Source of the DNA: Acidimicrobiales bacterium
Lineage (GTDB): Bacteria > Actinomycetota > Acidimicrobiia > Acidimicrobiales > UBA8190
Direction: 5' to 3'
NCBI GenBank assembly: GCA_035531755.1
Contig: DATKSK010000035.1
Span: 1 to 52,771 of the forward strand
Length of the DNA stretch: 52,771 nt
In this document: in pieces, positions 25,690 to 47,058 of the stretch
How positions within the stretch are numbered: position 1 is the first letter of the stretch
How the letters are laid out: every line of letters starts with the position of its first letter
Program-made: the position numbers and the translations under genes
Notes under the pieces: generated by a model
Databases searched by the model: none
Told to the model about the DNA's origin: nothing
What the model saw: the letters and a program-made list of their open reading frames with translations, nothing else

Positions 25690-26742
25690 TCAGGGGTGCC
25701 CCCCGCCGTTACCGCCGGGGAGCGCCTCGTTCCTCGTGACGGCGAGTTCGATGACGGACCCGGCGCCGGCGCCGTGCACTGCCACTGGCGCGAGGCCCGC
25801 CCTGGCTGCGAGCGCCGTGAGCTCGCCGAGGTCCCGCTCGCGCCCACCGAAGTAGGCGAGCATGAGCAGGCCCCGGGCGGTGTCGACGGCGTCGCCGTCA
25901 GAGGGGACCCGCTCCACGACGAGCACCCTGCCGTCCGGACGAGCGGCCTCGGCGCAACGCCGGAGGATGGCGGTGGCGGCGGCGTCGTCCCAGTTGTGGA
26001 GGACCTCGCACAGCAGGTACCCGTCGGCACCCGGGGGCAGCGGGTCGAAGAAGCTCCCGGCGACGGCGCCGGCCCGGCCGGACAGACCTGCCTCCTCCAG
26101 CACGACACCGGCGGCGCGTGCTGCCCCGGGGAGGTCGAGGACCGTGCCGTGCAGCGCGGGAAAGGCCCGCAACAGGGCGACCACGAGGGTGCCGTTCCCA
26201 CCTCCGACGTCGACGATGTGGCCGAGCGTCCCCCAGTCGAGGGCGGCCACGACGGCCGGGGCGTGGGCAGCGACGTCGGCGCCCATCATGGCGTCGAAGG
26301 CCTCGGTGCGGGTCGCGTCGGCGGACAGGTCCTCCCAGAAGGTGCGCCCGAACTGCGCCGGGAACCCCGCCCGCCCCGTGCGCACGGCGTGGAGCAGCTG
26401 CACGAAGGATTGGTCGGCACGACCCAGCGGACCGTCGATGTCCAGCCTGGCCCGCACGCTGTGGGGATGGTCGGAGCGAAGCGGACCGCCCACCGTCGTC
26501 AGCGCGTAGCCGCCCGCCCCGTCGGAGCCGAGCACCCCGACGGTGACCAGGTGGCGCAGCACCCGGTCGAGGGCGTCCGCGTCGGCGTGCACGGCGTCGG
26601 CCAATGCCGGTGCGGTCCGCGCCCCGCCGGCCACCTGGTCGGCGATGCGCAGCGTGGCCGCCACCCGGAGCGCCATCGGTGTCGCCAGGTCGGCCAGGGC
26701 CAGCACCCGGGCAGGGTCGTCGGTGGGGCCGTCCTCGCGCAC
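25690..26742 (-). CDS. SAM-dependent O-methyltransferase
   Basis: The product is 350 aa. The N-terminal winged-helix dimerisation domain (TPMALRVAATLRIADQVAGG ... RVLRHLVTVGVL) is followed by the SAM site HIVDVGGGNGTLVVAL (~175-190) and LCEVLHNWDDAAATAILRRC, in which the His is the usual catalytic base. This is the acetylserotonin/polyketide O-methyltransferase class that methylates small-molecule hydroxyls. It follows the acyltransferase by 15 nt and is the last gene of the FAR-ADH-LarA-PlsC unit, so it probably modifies the product of that pathway. Confidence 0.88.
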   Translation of the reverse strand: MREDGPTDDPARVLALADLATPMALRVAATLRIADQVAGGARTAPALADAVHADADALDRVLRHLVTVGVLGSDGAGGYALTTVGGPLRSDHPHSVRARLDIDGPLGRADQSFVQLLHAVRTGRAGFPAQFGRTFWEDLSADATRTEAFDAMMGADVAAHAPAVVAALDWGTLGHIVDVGGGNGTLVVALLRAFPALHGTVLDLPGAARAAGVVLEEAGLSGRAGAVAGSFFDPLPPGADGYLLCEVLHNWDDAAATAILRRCAEAARPDGRVLVVERVPSDGDAVDTARGLLMLAYFGGRERDLGELTALAARAGLAPVAVHGAGAGSVIELAVTRNEALPGGNGGGHP

Positions 26743-26757
26743 GGCGCCCCGGTCGAA

Positions 26758-27690
26758 TCAGTCGTCGGCGAGCGCCCAGCGCCCGGGGTCGTCGGTGTCG
26801 CCGCCCGGTGCGGGCCCGAGCGCCCAGGCCCGGCGCCAGGGCGACGCCTCGGGCCCTCGCGGCGAGGGGGTGCGTCCTGTGCCGGCGTGGCGGCGCGCCG
26901 TCCACCAGTCCGTGCGAGCCTCGTCGGCCAGCGTGGCCATGGCGGCGTCGATGCGCGCCTCGAGGCGACGGGCGTCCTCACCCTCGGCGGCGACGATGGG
27001 CGAGCCGACGGTGATGCGGGTCGGGCTCCGGCGCAGGCGTTCGCCGCCGCGGGGCAGGATCCGGTAGGTGCCGTCGATGTGCACCGGGACGACGGGGCGC
27101 CCGGTGCGGGTGGCGAGGTAGGCGGCACCGCCGCGCATGGCCTGGAACCACCCGTCGTGGGTCCGGCCCCCCTCGGGGTAGATGACGAGGTTCCAGCCGT
27201 CGCGCAGGAGGGCGGCCGCGCTCTCGGCCGAGCGGCGGTTCACGCGGTGGCGCTCGATGGGGATGGCGGCGAGGAACAAGGCCCACAGGTGGGCCTTCCA
27301 GCGGCGGTCGAAGAAGTGGTCGGCGGCGGCCGCGACCACGGTGCGGTGGCGCACGCTCGTCGGGAGCACCGACAACAGCAGGGGTGTGTCGACGTGGCTG
27401 GCGTGGTTGGCCACGTAGATGGCGGGCGCCTCCACGTGCTCGAGGATCTCGTTGCCGCGCACCGCCGGGGAGGCCATGACGTGGGCGAGCGGGCGCGTGA
27501 CGTTGTCGAGGACGACGGCCCGCAGCAGGCGGGCGGGGTAGCGCCGACTCCATTCCGTGTCGTACTCCACGCCGAGGTGGCGCTCGGGACGCGGGCGGTC
27601 GACGGTGACGGGCCACGTGGGCGCCGACCACGGGAACCCCTCGGGGCGCAACCGGCGTGCGCGCCTCATCAGGCGCTCCACCGCGCTCAC
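26758..27690 (-). CDS. PlsC-type lysophospholipid acyltransferase
   Basis: GTG 27690 (MSAVERLMRRARRLRP) has a GGGGGACGAG site; the frame stays open upstream through a tandem repeat, which would add an unlikely Cys/Asp/Leu-Arg repeat. The product is 310 aa. Acyltransferase block I is VANHASHVDTP (NHxxxxD, ~92) and block III is IYPEGGRTHDGW (~172); block IV VVPVHIDGTYRILP follows. The first ~55 residues are basic, with a membrane-associating segment near VVLDNVTRPLAHVM. It transfers a fatty acyl chain to a glycerol-phosphate or related alcohol acceptor. It lies in the minus-strand lipid operon. Confidence 0.85.
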   Translation of the reverse strand: MSAVERLMRRARRLRPEGFPWSAPTWPVTVDRPRPERHLGVEYDTEWSRRYPARLLRAVVLDNVTRPLAHVMASPAVRGNEILEHVEAPAIYVANHASHVDTPLLLSVLPTSVRHRTVVAAAADHFFDRRWKAHLWALFLAAIPIERHRVNRRSAESAAALLRDGWNLVIYPEGGRTHDGWFQAMRGGAAYLATRTGRPVVPVHIDGTYRILPRGGERLRRSPTRITVGSPIVAAEGEDARRLEARIDAAMATLADEARTDWWTARRHAGTGRTPSPRGPEASPWRRAWALGPAPGGDTDDPGRWALADD

Positions 27691-27770
27691 CTCGTCCCCC
27701 GTCCGCCCCTGGCGGATGACGACTTCGGTCCGGGACGCGGCCGCGCCGGGCGTCGTTCCGGGTCCCGAGG

Positions 27771-27840
27771 GGTCAGCGCACCGGGGGTCACCGCACCGGA
27801 GGTCAGCGCACCGGAGGTCAGCGCACCGGAGGTCACCGGA
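27771..27840. repeat. 15-bp tandem repeat, ~4.7 copies
   Basis: Units of GGTCAGCGCACCGGA (or one-base variants) start at 27771, 27786, 27801, 27816 and 27831. The array sits between the LarA-like gene and the acyltransferase, and the last partial unit supplies the TGA stop of the LarA-like gene (27833-27835). Confidence 0.85.
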
Positions 27841-29419
27841 CGTCGGCCATGAGTAGCGGGGGCGAATGCAGGTGCGTGATGGTCGGGTCCGGCCCCACCA
27901 CGTCACTCGCCATCTCGAGCGCGTCGGCCATCGACGACGCCGGCTTGAACCCGAGACGGCGCACGGCGGCCCGGTCGCCGCCGACGATGATCACGGCCCC
28001 GACGTGCTCGAGGGCATGCGCGCACCAGTACCACATGTAGAAGGGGTGTACCCCGTGGTACGCGTTGCCGGTGCGGTAGAGGTGCACGTACCAGGGGTCG
28101 GTGGCGAAGGACTCCTCGTACTTGCCGATCTCGTTCGGGTCGGTGGTCTCGGCCAGGACCTGCTCGAAGAAGTCGATGTAGCTCGGGTGGTGTCCCGGGT
28201 GGAAGGCCCACGGCGTGGGGTGGCTCATGATGACCACGCCGCCCTCGCGCACGATGGGGCGGCCCCGGTACATGTTGAAGAAGTACCCGAGGCCGAGGCA
28301 CGCCACCAAGATGGGGTTCATGATCGAGTTGACGTTGTACGGGCAGATGTAGGGCAGGCCCATGGTCAGCACGTCACTCTGCCCGTCGACCTCGAGCAAC
28401 TGCTGTGCGTAGACGTTCTCCGTGGTGCGGGCGTGCACCGCCTCCACCTCACCGGCCTGCACCGAGGTCATGCGGTGCGGGGCCTTGATGGAGTGGAAGA
28501 TCGTGCGCGCCACCCGTGGGGGGGTCGCCGCCAGGACCTTCGACGACGCCAGGAAGGCGGCCCGGTCCCGGGCCCCCCACTCCCACTCGCGCCGCTGGAG
28601 GAAGCGGAACTGCTCGGGGAAGGTGTCGGTGTTGAGCGTCGTCTCGATCTGGAACACCTTGACGCCCGACGCCGCGATGAGCCGACCCATGCGCCAGTTC
28701 GACGAGTGCAGCTCGGAGCGGTGCTGGTCCATGAACGACCGGCTGTGCGCCATGGTCCGGGCATTGTGGTGGTGGCGGAGGCTCTTGTAGCTGGCGAGCC
28801 CCGTGGCCACCGACTTGTGGCCGCCGTCCATGGCCACCAGGTTGATGTTCACGTACACGAGGAGATCGGACTCCGCGGCGCGCTTGTTGATCTCGACGTC
28901 CTCGCCCTGCTCGGTGAGCCCGAGGTGGACGAGCTGGTCGGGGTCCTCGGCGTCGTGCTGCCACAGCAGGCCGTGCGGCGCGAAGGCGTCGTAGACGCGG
29001 TCGCCCAGCGCGTGGCGGAGTTCGGCGTCTGTCATGCGCCGGTGCAGCGCCAGGGCGGCGATGAGCACGACGTCGTCCACCCCCGCCTCGGCGGCCACGT
29101 CGAGCACCTGCTCGATGACGAGCTGGCGCACATCGGGGCGGCGCATGGGCGGGAGGGGCAGCGACACGTCGTCGAAGGCGATGGTGAGCCGCATGCCGGG
29201 GCGCAGCTGCGAGGCCAGCGGTTCGGCGTCACCGAGCGGGTTCGCCAGCGCCTGGCGGATGGCGCCCACGGGGTCGGCCAGCGCGTCGAACGGCTCGGGG
29301 GCGTACAGCACGCGGCTCCCGGTCGGCAGCCGCTCCAGGCGATAGCCCTCGCCGTGCCAGAAGAGCGTCGGTGGGGTGGAGCGGTCCACCTCGAGGACGA
29401 AGCCGGGCCTCGGGCTCAT
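27833..29419 (-). CDS. LarA-family (nickel-pincer lactate-racemase-like) protein
   Basis: ATG 29419 overlaps the previous gene's stop (ATGA); AAGGACG lies upstream. The product is 528 aa, about 100 longer than LarA (~425). The N-terminal domain (DUF2088) contains IAFDDVSLPLPPMRRPDVRQ and VDDVVLIAALALHRRMTDAE, parallel to the LarA 'DxTRPxP' and 'AxGxHR' motifs. The central INLVAMDGGHKSVATGLASY then SLRHHHN matches the LarA G-G-x-K-S ... N-H-N segment, whose Lys anchors the nickel-pincer cofactor. The C-terminal region is divergent and His/Trp/Tyr-rich. Known LarA homologues racemise or epimerise 2-hydroxyacids. No larB, larC or larE lies in this window. Confidence 0.75.
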   Translation of the reverse strand: MSPRPGFVLEVDRSTPPTLFWHGEGYRLERLPTGSRVLYAPEPFDALADPVGAIRQALANPLGDAEPLASQLRPGMRLTIAFDDVSLPLPPMRRPDVRQLVIEQVLDVAAEAGVDDVVLIAALALHRRMTDAELRHALGDRVYDAFAPHGLLWQHDAEDPDQLVHLGLTEQGEDVEINKRAAESDLLVYVNINLVAMDGGHKSVATGLASYKSLRHHHNARTMAHSRSFMDQHRSELHSSNWRMGRLIAASGVKVFQIETTLNTDTFPEQFRFLQRREWEWGARDRAAFLASSKVLAATPPRVARTIFHSIKAPHRMTSVQAGEVEAVHARTTENVYAQQLLEVDGQSDVLTMGLPYICPYNVNSIMNPILVACLGLGYFFNMYRGRPIVREGGVVIMSHPTPWAFHPGHHPSYIDFFEQVLAETTDPNEIGKYEESFATDPWYVHLYRTGNAYHGVHPFYMWYWCAHALEHVGAVIIVGGDRAAVRRLGFKPASSMADALEMASDVVGPDPTITHLHSPPLLMADVR

Positions 29420-30777
29420 GGGACGCGTCCTTTCGTGGCCGTCGGGCCTGTCGTGGCGGGGCCACGGGCCCCGTGGCGGGCGCCGGCGCGCAGGTCGAAG
29501 ACCACCTTGACCGCTCCCCGGCGCCCGGCGGCGCCGGCGTGGGCGAGGGCTTCCTCGAAGTGCTCCAGCGGGTAGTGCGCCGAGACCAGCCGACCGAGGC
29601 CGGCCGCGGCCACAACGTCCATGGCGATGTCGAAGGTCCGCCGCAGGGTCCCGCCCACGTCCTCGACGCCGTAGGCGTAGGCGCCGGTGACCGCCACCTC
29701 GCGGTGCCACAGCGAGGCCAGGTCCACGCTCACGCGCCCGGGCATGCCCACCAGCACGACCCGCCCCCGGGGCCGCACCATGGTGAGCGCCTGGGCCAAG
29801 GACTCGTCGCTGCCAACGCAGTCCACCACCACGTCGGCCCCCCCGGTGAGGGTCCCCGACACCGACAACGAACGCGAGCGTCGCCGCACGGCACGCGCCA
29901 GCTGTCCGGGCTCGACCACCACGTCCGCCCCGAGCTCCTCGGCCAGGCGACGCTGGTGGGCGTAGCGGGCGCCGACGAGCAGGGTGTCGGGCGCGGCGAG
30001 GCGCCGCAGGGCCGCCACCGTGCACAGGCCCAGCGTCCCGGCCCCGAGCACCGCCACGGTGTCCCCGGCCTCGACCTCGGCGTCGACGGCGGCGTGCACG
30101 GCGCAGGCGGTGGGCTCCACCATCACGGCGTCCTCGTCCGACATGGCGTCGGGCACCCGGTGCAGCTGCGCCTCGTGGGCCACGAGCCCACCGGCTGACC
30201 AACCCCCGCCGGTGTCGCTGCAGAAGCCGATCTGCAGGCCGGGCGACAGATGGCCGAACGCCACGCGCTCGCACCCGCCGGTGCGGCCCGCGGCGCACGC
30301 CGCACAGAGCGGCTGGATGCCGCGGGCCACGCAGCCCAGCACGGGCTCGATGACGACGCGCGTCCCGACGCCACCGACCGGAGTGCCGCCGACCGCAGTG
30401 CCGCCGACCGGAGTGCCGCCGACCGGAGTGCCGCCGACCGGATTGGCGTCGCCGGGGACGCCGGTTCCGGGGACGCCGGTTCCGGGGATGCCGTCCTCGA
30501 GGATGCCGACCACCTCGTGGCCGGGGACGAAGGGGAAGCTCACCACGTCCTCGAAGTAGCGCGAGCTGCGGCCGTCGATGGTGGAGAGGTCCGACCCGCA
30601 GATCCCCGCCAGCAGCGGCTGCACCCGGTGCCATCCGGGACCGGGGAGGTCGGGGGGCGTGACGTCGGTGAGCCGCAGGGGGCCGACGGCCGCGCCACGG
30701 CCCGAGCCGCCGATGGCCGAGGCCAGCCGGGAGGCGGCGAAGCGCGGCAGGTTGCGTTCGAACAGCAGGCCCTTCAT
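29416..30777 (-). CDS. Zinc-dependent alcohol dehydrogenase with repeat insertion
   Basis: The product is 453 aa, about 100 longer than a typical medium-chain dehydrogenase. Catalytic zinc residues are in AGICGSDLSTIDG (Cys) and FVPGHEVVG (His-Glu). The structural zinc lobe has four Cys in CVARGIQPLCAACAAGRTGG C. The NAD(P) fold is VAVLGAGTLGLCTVAALRRL. Between the catalytic His-Glu motif and the structural zinc lobe (residues ~96-136) lies a low-complexity stretch of GTGVP and GGTPV units encoded by a 15-bp tandem repeat. It probably oxidises or reduces an alcohol made by the FAR gene just upstream (10 nt away). Confidence 0.88.
   Translation of the reverse strand: MKGLLFERNLPRFAASRLASAIGGSGRGAAVGPLRLTDVTPPDLPGPGWHRVQPLLAGICGSDLSTIDGRSSRYFEDVVSFPFVPGHEVVGILEDGIPGTGVPGTGVPGDANPVGGTPVGGTPVGGTAVGGTPVGGVGTRVVIEPVLGCVARGIQPLCAACAAGRTGGCERVAFGHLSPGLQIGFCSDTGGGWSAGGLVAHEAQLHRVPDAMSDEDAVMVEPTACAVHAAVDAEVEAGDTVAVLGAGTLGLCTVAALRRLAAPDTLLVGARYAHQRRLAEELGADVVVEPGQLARAVRRRSRSLSVSGTLTGGADVVVDCVGSDESLAQALTMVRPRGRVVLVGMPGRVSVDLASLWHREVAVTGAYAYGVEDVGGTLRRTFDIAMDVVAAAGLGRLVSAHYPLEHFEEALAHAGAAGRRGAVKVVFDLRAGARHGARGPATTGPTATKGRVP
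30370..30489. repeat. In-frame 15-bp tandem repeat inside the alcohol dehydrogenase
   Basis: Eight 15-bp units: five variants of GCCGCCGACCGGAGT (30370-30444) and three variants of GCCGGTTCCGGGGAC (30445-30489). Unit length is a multiple of three, so copy-number changes keep the reading frame. Confidence 0.9.
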
Positions 30778-30787
30778 GGCGTGCCCG

Positions 30788-33355
30788 TCATCGCATGCCC
30801 TCGACCCGGGCCCACCAACGCGACGCGTCGAGGTCGACGGGACCGTAGGGGAGGGGTGGGCGGGCGCCGCCCCCGGCCTTGTCCCACTGCTCGACGTGCC
30901 AGCCCCGGCGCCGCGCGATCGTCGCCAGCCGGGCCTCGGGGTTGACCGCCACCGGGAACCCGACGCACTCGAGCAGGGGCAGGTCTGACGCCGAGTCGGC
31001 GTAGGCGACGGACTCGCCCAGGTCGAGGCCTTCGGCGGCGGCGTACTCGGCCAGCACCAGCGCCCGGGCCTCGCCCGTGGGCGGGAGCCGGTCGAGGCGG
31101 CCCGTCAGGCGGCCGTCGGCGTCCTCGCCCAGCCGGGCGCACACCACCTCGTCGAAGAGCGTCCGCAACGGCTCCACCACGAAGTCGAGCGCACCGGTGA
31201 TGAGCACCGTGCGGTGCCCGAGCGCCCGGTGCGCCCGCACCCGGGCGATGCCGGCGGGGAACGACTTGCGTAGCAGCAGGTGGTGGAACATCTCGGCGGC
31301 GTCCCGGCGCAGCAGCTCGGCGGGGGCGCCGTCGTAGCGCCGGTAGAAGTTGCGCAGGAAGTCGCCGCGGTCGCGCCGGTCGAGGGCGAGCAGCTGCGGG
31401 GCCTCGCGCAGGATCCGGGCCGTGAGCCGGACGCGCTCGCCGACCGGCAGGTGTCGCCCCGCCAGCCAGGCGTAGGACTCCACCACGTTGGAGGCCACGA
31501 GTGTGTTCTCGAGGTCGAAGGCGGCCAGGTGGCGCTCGGGGGACAGGATGGCGGTGCGCGCCCGGTCGGAGCGGCTGGCCATGGTCGAGCGGCGCGGCGA
31601 CGACCGCACCCGGGCGTGCTCCACCACCGACGGGAGGTGCACGTCGTGCACGTAGCTCGGCCACGAGATCACCGCGGGGTCGAAACAGAAGGTGTCGCGA
31701 TCGGTGGGCGAGAGCCGCTCCCACAGCGCCACCAGGCGGGTCACGTCGAAGTGCGCCTCGGTCTCGGTGTAGGCGCCGTAGAGCTCGGTGTAGCCGAGCG
31801 CGCGCTCGGCCTGGGCCCGCCGCTCCTCCACACGCGCCGCGAACTCGGCCCGCTCGCCGCGCACGGGCAGCGCGCCGAGCACGCGCTCGGCCGTCGACAG
31901 TGCCTTGGTGGCCCGTTGGAGCTGGCGCTGGACGCGGCCGCGCCCGGGGAAGGACCACTCGGGCACCATGATCGGCTGCCCGTCGGCGTCGTACAGCGGG
32001 TGCTCCGAGAACCACGAGCGCACCAGGTCGACGAGCTGCCCGTAGCGCAGGGGGTTCCGGACGCTGGAGGCCACGTGGTACACCGACGGGCCCCCGGGGT
32101 CGGGCCCGGCCGCCGCCACCGTGATGATGGCGGCCACCACCATGTCGACGGGGATGACGTCCACGACGCCCTCGGGGACGCCGGGGAACTCGCGCAACAG
32201 GCCCCGTCCGTAGGAGACGATGATGGGCTCGGCCATGCGGAAGCCCCGGATCCACCCGGGGCGGGGCTCGGCCAGCGACGACTCGATGATCGACGGCCGC
32301 ACGATGGTCGTGGGCACCCCGGCATGGGAGCTCACGAGGGCGCGCTCGCCCAGTGCCTTGGTGAAGGCGTAGGCGTCGGGCCACCCGAGCGCCTGGGCGC
32401 GGGCCCGGCCGGTGTCGACGAGCTGCGTGCGAACCCACTCGTCGCGCACCTTCTCGGCTCGCTCGGCGAGGAGGTGCGTGCCGGCTGCGCCCAGCTCGGC
32501 GCGCGCCCGCTTGGTGAACTGTCGGAGGCGCTCGGGCGATCGGGACGCCGCCTCCAGATCGGCGCGCAGTCGCCGGGCGGCGGCCACCTCGGCGTCGATG
32601 TCGACCTCGGTGGTGACGGTGGTGTGCGTGCGGGCCCTGGCGCCCGAGGCCATCGCCACGGTGGCGAGCGTCTCGGTGGCGTCCCCTTGGTGGGTGCCGG
32701 CGACGTACGCCGTCGAGACCGACACGAGGTGCGTGGCGCGACGGTCGGGGAAGTCCGTGGCACGATCCGCGGCCACCGACTCGATGGCGGCCGCGACCCG
32801 CGACGGGCCCAGCAGGTTCACCTCGACGGCGGTGTCGAGGGGCGCGTCGAACGCCACCGTGGCGGCCGAGTGCACGACCACGTCGCACGAGGCGAGCACC
32901 CGCCTGCCCTCGTCGTCGAGCCCCAGGCCGTCGCGGCCCACGTCCCCGGCGACGGCGGAGAGCCGACCGGCGAGGTGCGCCTCGAAGCCCGCCCCCAACT
33001 CGGTGCGCAGGCGGTCGAAGCAGTCGTTGCGGACGATCTCGCGCGCCAGGCGGGCGGCGGCGTCGGAGCGCCTGGTGGGCCGGACGAGCACCACGACCTC
33101 GCAACCGGGGACGGTGCGCACCAGTCGCTCCACGAGGGCCGTCCCGAGGAAGCCCGTTGCCCCCGTCACGAAGATGCGGGCGCCGTCGAGGGCGCTGAGG
33201 ATGTCGAGGGCGTCGAGGACGGTCGCGGTGGCGTGCGCGTCGACGGTGGCGTGCGCGCCGAGGGCAGAGGCGGCGGTGGCGGGGCTGGCCCCCGACGGGG
33301 GATCGTCCGGCCCGGGTGTCCCGGACCGTGCTGAGGGGGTCGTCACCTCGGCCAC
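30788..33355 (-). CDS. Fatty acyl-CoA reductase / HAD hydrolase fusion
   Basis: The start is GTG 33355; the product is 855 aa. Residues ~55-590: male-sterility/FAR-type extended SDR with TGATGFLGTALVERLVR (NADP site), VVVLVRPTRRSDAAARL, a HLVSVSTAYVAG segment and the catalytic pair in WPDAYAFTKALGE (Y-x-x-x-K, ~327). Residues ~600-840: HAD-IB phosphatase-like domain, AAFDLENTLVASN (the DxDxT motif reads D-L-E-N-T), TVLITGALDFVVEPL and AYADSASDLPLLE. FAR domains reduce fatty acyl-CoA to an aldehyde or alcohol; the HAD domain could remove a phosphate. It is the first gene of the TetR-opposed operon. The N-terminal ~40 residues are Ala/Ser/Pro-rich and probably disordered. Confidence 0.87.
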   Translation of the reverse strand: MAEVTTPSARSGTPGPDDPPSGASPATAASALGAHATVDAHATATVLDALDILSALDGARIFVTGATGFLGTALVERLVRTVPGCEVVVLVRPTRRSDAAARLAREIVRNDCFDRLRTELGAGFEAHLAGRLSAVAGDVGRDGLGLDDEGRRVLASCDVVVHSAATVAFDAPLDTAVEVNLLGPSRVAAAIESVAADRATDFPDRRATHLVSVSTAYVAGTHQGDATETLATVAMASGARARTHTTVTTEVDIDAEVAAARRLRADLEAASRSPERLRQFTKRARAELGAAGTHLLAERAEKVRDEWVRTQLVDTGRARAQALGWPDAYAFTKALGERALVSSHAGVPTTIVRPSIIESSLAEPRPGWIRGFRMAEPIIVSYGRGLLREFPGVPEGVVDVIPVDMVVAAIITVAAAGPDPGGPSVYHVASSVRNPLRYGQLVDLVRSWFSEHPLYDADGQPIMVPEWSFPGRGRVQRQLQRATKALSTAERVLGALPVRGERAEFAARVEERRAQAERALGYTELYGAYTETEAHFDVTRLVALWERLSPTDRDTFCFDPAVISWPSYVHDVHLPSVVEHARVRSSPRRSTMASRSDRARTAILSPERHLAAFDLENTLVASNVVESYAWLAGRHLPVGERVRLTARILREAPQLLALDRRDRGDFLRNFYRRYDGAPAELLRRDAAEMFHHLLLRKSFPAGIARVRAHRALGHRTVLITGALDFVVEPLRTLFDEVVCARLGEDADGRLTGRLDRLPPTGEARALVLAEYAAAEGLDLGESVAYADSASDLPLLECVGFPVAVNPEARLATIARRRGWHVEQWDKAGGGARPPLPYGPVDLDASRWWARVEGMR

Positions 33356-33364
33356 CGTCTCTGT

Positions 33365-33378
33365 CTACCATATGGTAG
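33365..33378. promoter_or_regulatory. Perfect 14-bp palindrome, probable TetR operator
   Basis: CTACCATATGGTAG is self-complementary and fills most of the 23-nt gap between the divergent TetR gene (GTG 33379) and the FAR-HAD gene (GTG 33355). A TetR dimer bound here would block both transcripts. The TetR start directly abuts the palindrome with no ribosome site, so either it is translated from a leaderless mRNA or the real start is the GTG a few codons later. Confidence 0.65.
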
Positions 33379-34098
33379 GTGAGCGCATCGGACGCCGGCC
33401 GGCGAGTGGGTGCGGAGCGCCCCGAGGGAGGTACGGCCGAGCGCATCCTCGATGCCGCCCTGGTGTCGTTCGGCTCGCGTGGCTACGAAGCGACGTCCCT
33501 CGACGCCCTCGCCGAGTCGTTGGGCGTGCGCAAGCAGTCGATCCTCTACTGGTTCCCCTCGAAGGACGCGCTGCTGGAGGCGCTCATCGACCGTTCCGCC
33601 GGGGAGCTGGCGGCGGCCCTCGAGGCATCCCTGGCGAGCGCCGGCTCCGGTTGGGCGCGCGTGGAGGCGGTCGTGCGGTCGGTCTTCCGGCTGGCGGCGC
33701 GCCGCCCCGAGCTCCTTGGCCTGCTGCGCGAGGTCGGACGCCTGGGCCCGCCGTCGGCCACCCGCCTGATGCTCGTGCTGGAGCCCCTCGTGCAGCGGGC
33801 GTCGGCCTTCCTCGAGGAAGAGATGGATGCCGGGCACATGCGTCGCCACGAGCCCCGCCTGCTGCTGCTGGCCATCTACTCCACCGTGGTCGGGATGATC
33901 ACCGAGGTCGAGGTGCTCCGGGCGCTCGGCGAGGAGCCGACGGCGCGGTCGCTGGTGCGGCGCCGGCAGGAGATCCTGCGGCTCCTGCGCTCGGCGCTGC
34001 TCGTCGACAGCGGGGACGGCGCCGGGGGCGGCCCGGGTCCGGGCGGAACGAGAAGCGCGGGCGGCGCGCCAGGCGTGGGCGGCGCGGCGCGGGGGTGA
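33379..34098 (+). CDS. TetR-family transcriptional regulator
   Basis: The product is 239 aa from GTG 33379; a second GTG (33406) would give a product about 9 residues shorter. The HTH region is AERILDAALVSFGSRGYEAT then SLDALAESLGVRKQSILYWF, a textbook TetR DNA-binding domain. The C-terminal ligand domain is helical, and the last ~30 residues are Gly/Ala-rich and probably disordered. It is divergent from the FAR-HAD operon and is the likely repressor of it. Many TetR proteins of this type bind acyl-CoA or fatty acids, which would suit the neighbours, but the ligand is unproven. Confidence 0.92.
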   Translation: MSASDAGRRVGAERPEGGTAERILDAALVSFGSRGYEATSLDALAESLGVRKQSILYWFPSKDALLEALIDRSAGELAAALEASLASAGSGWARVEAVVRSVFRLAARRPELLGLLREVGRLGPPSATRLMLVLEPLVQRASAFLEEEMDAGHMRRHEPRLLLLAIYSTVVGMITEVEVLRALGEEPTARSLVRRRQEILRLLRSALLVDSGDGAGGGPGPGGTRSAGGAPGVGGAARG

Positions 34099-46984: not shown

Positions 46985-47058
46985 GGGCGCATAGCTCAGT
47001 TGGTTAGAGCGCAGCCTTCACACGGCTGAGGTCGGGTGTTCGAGTCACCCTGCGCCCA
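46985..47058 (+). tRNA. tRNA-Val (anticodon CAC)
   Basis: A 74-nt cloverleaf. The acceptor stem GGGCGCA (46985-46991) pairs with TGCGCCC (47051-47057) and the discriminator is A 47058. The D arm has AGCTCAGTTGGTTAGAGC. The anticodon arm CAGCC-TTCACAC-GGCTG gives anticodon CAC. The T arm has GGGTGTTCGAGTCACCC. CCA is not encoded. The gene is the integration target of the element to its right. Confidence 0.95.

Follow-up and report, generated by a model that had tools for sequence, protein, structure and literature searches.

A conserved, predicted TetR-regulated lipid operon with an orphan nickel-pincer-family enzyme in Acidimicrobiia and other deep-branching actinobacteria

Background

The LarA homologues of groups 14 to 16 (LarAH14/15/16; Desguin et al. 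2020, PMC7583248) constitute a branch of the nickel-pincer family with no known reaction, and the main text of that paper does not describe a conserved lipid operon around their genes. Groups 14 and 15 are reported to lack an equivalent of LarA H174 (PMC12611868), i.e. the second catalytic histidine. The single-histidine LarA proteins of Streptococcus plurextorum and Blautia wexlerae (PDB entries 9q3k and 9q3j; PMC12611868) have one catalytic histidine and keep the residues that bind the nickel-pincer cofactor (NPN); they carry an Asn in place of the second histidine and have a carbohydrate gene context.

On the lipid side, the closest described system is the elb operon, which is needed for the formation of ether lipids in myxobacteria (PMC9131029). 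It encodes a fatty acyl reductase (FAR)-like part, an acyltransferase, a HAD protein and an NAD-dependent dehydrogenase, as well as ElbC, described in PMC9131029 only as being of unknown function. According to work cited in PMC11150832, mixed ether/ester membrane lipids are dominant in Rubrobacterales. AGPS and Ger/PlsA represent two other routes to 1-O-alkyl glycerolipids. A lipid study of Rubrobacterales by Sinninghe Damste and co-workers from 2023 reportedly refers to a possible operon for making 1-O-alkyl glycerol phosphate.

We report that a LarAH14/15/16 family member in an Acidimicrobiales genome is encoded within a conserved four-gene cassette that Acidimicrobiia share with further deep-branching actinobacteria. 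That this is a strictly conserved, regulated lipid operon with an orphan nickel-pincer-family enzyme is well supported; what it produces is a deduction of moderate strength, and the reaction that we assign to the LarA-like protein (LarAH) is speculation.

Gene organisation of the locus

The window, i.e. the whole stretch of DNA that was analysed, comprises 52,771 nt. In the open reading frame (ORF) listing, genes for FAR-HAD, an alcohol dehydrogenase (ADH), LarAH, PlsC and an O-methyltransferase (OMT) follow each other on the minus strand, and a TetR gene faces them on the plus strand (Table 1). The FAR-HAD and ADH genes are separated by 10 nt, the ADH and LarAH genes overlap by 4 nt (ATGA), and the PlsC and OMT genes are 15 nt apart. 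Between the LarAH and PlsC genes there is a gap of approximately 142 nt, part of which is filled by 15-nt tandem repeats (positions 27771-27845); the start of PlsC, a GTG, was set by the point where its homologues begin to align. The ORF listing and a check of the sequence returned the genes, spacings and palindrome reported in a first-pass annotation of this DNA, and its family calls coincide with the Pfam and NCBIfam assignments (NAD_binding_4, Sterile and HAD; zinc ADH; Lar_N; Acyltransferase; Methyltransf_2; TetR_N). Within the ADH gene a 15-nt repeat (30355-30474) encodes PVGGT-type peptides and constitutes an in-frame low-complexity insertion at residues ~97-135. The only structured RNA detected in the window is a tRNA (46985-47058).

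Table 1 Features of the locus (positions in the window)
Feature	Position	Strand	Length	Basis
FAR-HAD, fatty acyl-CoA reductase fused to HAD-IB phosphatase	30788-33355	-	855 aa	Pfam NAD_binding_4 7e-57, Sterile 6e-9, HAD 2e-27
ADH, zinc-type medium-chain alcohol dehydrogenase	29416-30777	-	453 aa	Pfam ADH_zinc_N, ADH_N
LarAH, LarA-like, LarAH14/15/16 family	27833-29419	-	528 aa	NCBIfam NF052592, 890.6 bits (cut-off 740)
PlsC-type acyltransferase	about 26758-27690	-	~310 aa	Pfam Acyltransferase 2e-20
OMT, O-methyltransferase	25690-26742	-		Pfam Methyltransf_2 3e-38
TetR-family regulator, divergent from the operon	33379-34098	+		Pfam TetR_N 2e-14
Predicted TetR operator, between TetR and FAR-HAD, here TCTACCATATGGTAGG	33364-33379			consensus TCTACCANNTGGTAGA

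Conservation of the cassette

Homologues of LarAH were found in 89 of 99 related genomes. Neighbouring genes were counted by tblastn at 80 named Acidimicrobiia loci, each gene being scored only where the contig reaches, and on this basis the ADH gene adjoins the LarAH gene in 79 of 79 loci, FAR-HAD accompanies it in 70 of 70 and PlsC flanks it in 76 of 76. The same gene order was observed at 16 loci of other Actinomycetota (ADH 16/16, FAR-HAD 16/16, PlsC 15/15). The conserved unit is thus four genes in the order FAR-HAD, zinc ADH, LarAH and PlsC. In the loci examined LarAH was never absent from the cassette; its gene lies between those for ADH and PlsC and often overlaps the former. Genome G050, which is from the order and has the cassette, showed no ADH. 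None of the cassette neighbours was in place at the genes of 13 more distant LarA relatives that score below the family cut-off. Of the five genes that the first-pass annotation had grouped together, four are consequently retained, with FAR-HAD beside the LarA-like gene as it had proposed to check by a neighbourhood search, and the OMT is not: it was present in 0 of 63 testable Acidimicrobiia loci, and here it lies next to the unit on the downstream side.

The Rubrobacteraceae loci read plsY, FAR-HAD, ADH and LarAH, with PlsY in place of PlsC; plsY is located upstream of FAR-HAD in all five loci whose contig reaches that far, and in R. radiotolerans (L169) the four genes are contiguous. In some members of this family (L166, L167 and L168) a protoglobin and a MOSC-domain protein are encoded between ADH and LarAH. 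Cultured type strains that carry the cassette include Acidimicrobium ferrooxidans, Ilumatobacter coccineus and Rubrobacter radiotolerans; we take genome G204 to be that of I. coccineus, and G138 is presumably R. xylanophilus. Plasmid-borne copies of the cassette were also considered and gave no match in the plasmid collection.

A predicted TetR operator

Between the TetR and FAR-HAD genes there is a perfect 14-bp palindrome, CTACCATATGGTAG (33365-33378); its 12-bp core has a single match in the window and none in 100 shuffles. Among 47 loci where a divergent TetR homologue faces FAR-HAD, the consensus TCTACCANNTGGTAGA was present in the intervening gap with at most two mismatches in 46, and the best match in shuffled controls had three mismatches. 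We predict that the palindrome serves as a conserved operator for TetR, and since it is positioned between both start codons TetR probably controls both sides. This agrees with the earlier proposal of a TetR-controlled unit with respect to FAR-HAD, ADH, LarAH and PlsC.

The LarA-like protein

LarAH matches the NCBIfam model NF052592 (LarAH14/15/16) over its entire length (model positions 1-520 of 520) and well above the cut-off, and its AlphaFold model (pLDDT 94.5) has the LarA fold full length. The best structural and sequence matches are the two single-histidine LarA proteins, 9q3k (Z 42.2, rmsd 2.1 over 453 residues) and 9q3j (Z 38.4), while lactate racemase LarA (5huq) aligns with a Z score of 30.6 and ~19% identity in the structural alignment. 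Conservation of individual residues was assessed in 107 cassette homologues and a 38-row alignment. The counterparts of the residues that bind NPN, K202 (Lys184 in LarA), H218 (His200) and R98 (Arg75), are invariant or nearly so, the NPN lysine and the nickel-ligand histidine being invariant over the 107 homologues, and the loss of all cofactor residues that would have spoken against the first-pass annotation was thus not seen. H126, which corresponds to the first catalytic histidine, His108, and D83/D84 (D72) are also invariant.

These residues are shared with LarA, but the second catalytic histidine (the His174 equivalent) is absent from the alignment of cassette homologues, in line with what has been published on groups 14 and 15, and a conserved NIN motif occupies its place. 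Compared to the single-histidine LarA relatives, with which the protein has the lone catalytic histidine and the NPN residues in common, the loop carrying this motif is four residues shorter and the genes around it point to lipids instead of carbohydrates. The missing histidine implies that LarAH is not an ordinary racemase; plain 2-hydroxy-acid racemisation, as by a two-histidine LarA proper, was rejected on this ground and is, judged from the residues present, unlikely.

Nickel-pincer cofactor genes

In the source genome larB and larC are neighbours on one contig (C72) and a LarE-type gene (TIGR00268) is present on another (C54); all three genes that the first-pass annotation had proposed to look for are hence in the genome. 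Within the order, larC was detected in 30 of 33 genomes with the cassette and in 0 of 14 without it (Fisher p 2e-9, a value that overstates independence as many of the larC-negative genomes are from one clade). LarB and LarC were not found in five incomplete cassette genomes. Three of these are from the order (G035, G462 and G050; L240-L242), and their LarAH has GGWK, not GGHK, at the cofactor lysine. This combination reflects a gap in the assembly or, alternatively, a branch that does not depend on NPN.

These data bear on whether LarAH uses the cofactor at all. It might be a pseudoenzyme or a scaffold within a lipid operon that no longer employs NPN, in keeping with the five genomes without LarB and LarC, with the lost second histidine and with the Frankia LarAH14, which was inactive in seven of seven isomerisations tested (PMC7583248). 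However, the invariant NPN lysine and nickel-ligand histidine, the tracking of larC with the cassette within the order and the fold, which is that of 9q3k, argue against such a role, and we give it only a slim chance.

Other enzymes of the cassette

The closest PDB relative of the FAR part of FAR-HAD is the fatty acyl-CoA reductase 7eoz. Its YxxxK motif and the HAD nucleophile are invariant; at the second acidic residue of the HAD domain, the inspected Acidimicrobiia sequences have Glu and most of the others have Asp. Most of the PDB entries related to the ADH are dehydrogenases of polyols and secondary alcohols. The PlsC motifs NHxSHxD and PEGxR are invariant or nearly so. The types of parts are similar to those of the elb operon. 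In elb, however, the multidomain protein ElbD combines FAR, ACS, ACP and acyltransferase domains, whereas Pfam and NCBIfam detect neither an ACS nor an ACP domain in the cassette proteins; moreover, the elb dehydrogenase belongs to a different family than the cassette ADH, and PMC9131029 states no counterpart of LarAH.

Other ether-lipid routes in cassette genomes

Neither AGPS nor Ger/PlsA is part of the cassette. An AGPS-like gene that is unlinked to the cassette is present in the source genome (C44:14048-15373; L198); the encoded protein has an HHHGIG motif and could use the fatty alcohol itself. FAR-HAD and ADH might then feed fatty alcohol to a separate enzyme, such as this unlinked AGPS-like protein or a wax-ester synthase, with LarAH having a side role. 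AGPS-like genes are indeed common in the order, but they do not track the cassette (25 of 33 genomes with it, 13 of 14 without it), and AGPS was rejected as a missing partner. The constant position of LarAH between ADH and PlsC likewise argues against a side role, and we regard this supply of alcohol to another enzyme as rather improbable. None of the matches in several complete cassette genomes, e.g. those of R. radiotolerans, A. ferrooxidans and I. coccineus, has the HHHG motif that AGPS-like proteins carry, an absence that is based on the motif and E-values.

A protein of Ger/PlsA size with the PF01869 (BcrAD_BadFG) domain was not found in these cassette genomes; PF01869 gave no match in the source genome, A. 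ferrooxidans and G109, and elsewhere it occurred in frames of 341-795 aa. Ger/PlsA was therefore rejected as the ether route, there being no match of the right size.

Proposed product and mechanism

Taken as a TetR-regulated lipid-biosynthesis operon, the cassette probably serves to make an unusual membrane lipid, which may be an ether lipid; a 1-O-alkyl (ether) glycerolipid is the product that we consider most likely, as a tentative assignment at somewhat less than an even chance. Three lines of evidence point to ether glycerolipids: PlsC or PlsY ties the cassette to glycerophosphate acylation, the Rubrobacterales carry the cassette and have reported mixed ether/ester lipids, and the elb operon has similar types of parts. 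The strict co-localisation of the genes, the lack of a clear AGPS or Ger in several complete cassette genomes, the invariant NPN residues and the tracking of larC also count in favour of this assignment. The first-pass annotation had listed an unusual long-chain alcohol, a hydroxy-lipid or an ether/ester lipid; the unusual lipid gains from the conservation of the cassette, and the ether option is favoured over the others by distribution and analogy, its reaction being a proposal. In the literature we found no lipid data from cassette-bearing species of Acidimicrobiia, and the AGPS-like gene of the source genome and the five incomplete genomes without LarB and LarC speak against the ether assignment.

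In the route that we envisage, FAR would convert acyl-CoA to fatty alcohol, the HAD domain would take off a phosphate, and PlsC, or PlsY in Rubrobacteraceae, would acylate the glycerol-phosphate backbone. The ADH would interconvert secondary alcohol and ketone on this backbone (acyl/alkyl-G3P and -DHAP). LarAH, with NPN as hydride store and one acid/base histidine, would carry out a hidden-redox step on one enantiomer with no racemisation, and where AGPS was not found LarAH would be the strongest candidate for forming the ether or activating the substrate. Once the other parts have been given their roles, LarAH alone is left over, and it may catalyse a hydride-borrowing step on the backbone, possibly ether formation, which we offer as a reasonable, if unproven, guess. 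The specific proposal that hydride borrowing by a single-histidine NPN enzyme creates the ether bond in bacterial 1-O-alkyl glycerolipids, in place of the flavoenzyme AGPS and the reductase Ger, is in our judgement distinctly unlikely.

2-Hydroxy acids are the substrates of the NPN enzymes known so far, the characterised LarA enzymes included (PMC7583248, PMC11770544), which speaks against an ether product and in favour of a pathway to 2-hydroxy fatty acids or 1,2-diol lipids. LarAH would here isomerise a 2-hydroxyacyl substrate, FAR, which could reduce 2-hydroxyacyl-CoA, would generate the 1,2-diol, PlsC would esterify the secondary alcohol and HAD would trim the phosphate, giving glycerol-free diol lipids as in Thermoleophilum and Thermomicrobium. 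Non-cassette single-histidine LarA relatives (~40% identical; L173 and L184) lie beside genes for CoA-transferase III and an AMP-ligase (AMP-binding), as expected for the activation of acyl acids, and these neighbours are a possible clue to the substrates of the single-histidine branch. It is because of the 2-hydroxy acids used by known LarA enzymes and these neighbours that a diol or 2-hydroxy product stays under consideration. The lack of the second catalytic histidine in LarAH, the PlsY beside the Rubrobacteraceae cassette, which indicates glycerol-3-phosphate, and the lack of a conserved 2-hydroxylase in the cassette count against it, and we judge it unlikely; a cassette that feeds alcohol to some other enzyme, or a LarAH that does without the cofactor, is less probable still.

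On the ether reading that we prefer, the genes of the cassette are candidates for making the ether lipids that Rubrobacterales are reported to contain, and the orphan LarAH14 branch gains a strictly conserved metabolic setting. Should the ether linkage be formed or activated by LarAH, the range of nickel-pincer chemistry would no longer end at the isomerisation of hydroxy acids, with a bearing on the 'lipid divide'; if LarAH forms the ether bond, this would constitute a further bacterial ether-lipid route, and LarAH would be the first NPN enzyme with a lipid substrate.

The source genome (G000) also encodes a second LarA (C30:8227-8859; L001 and L192), which has the canonical EPHFFAGFSGG motif and the second catalytic histidine, and whose gene adjoins a sugar-kinase-like gene.
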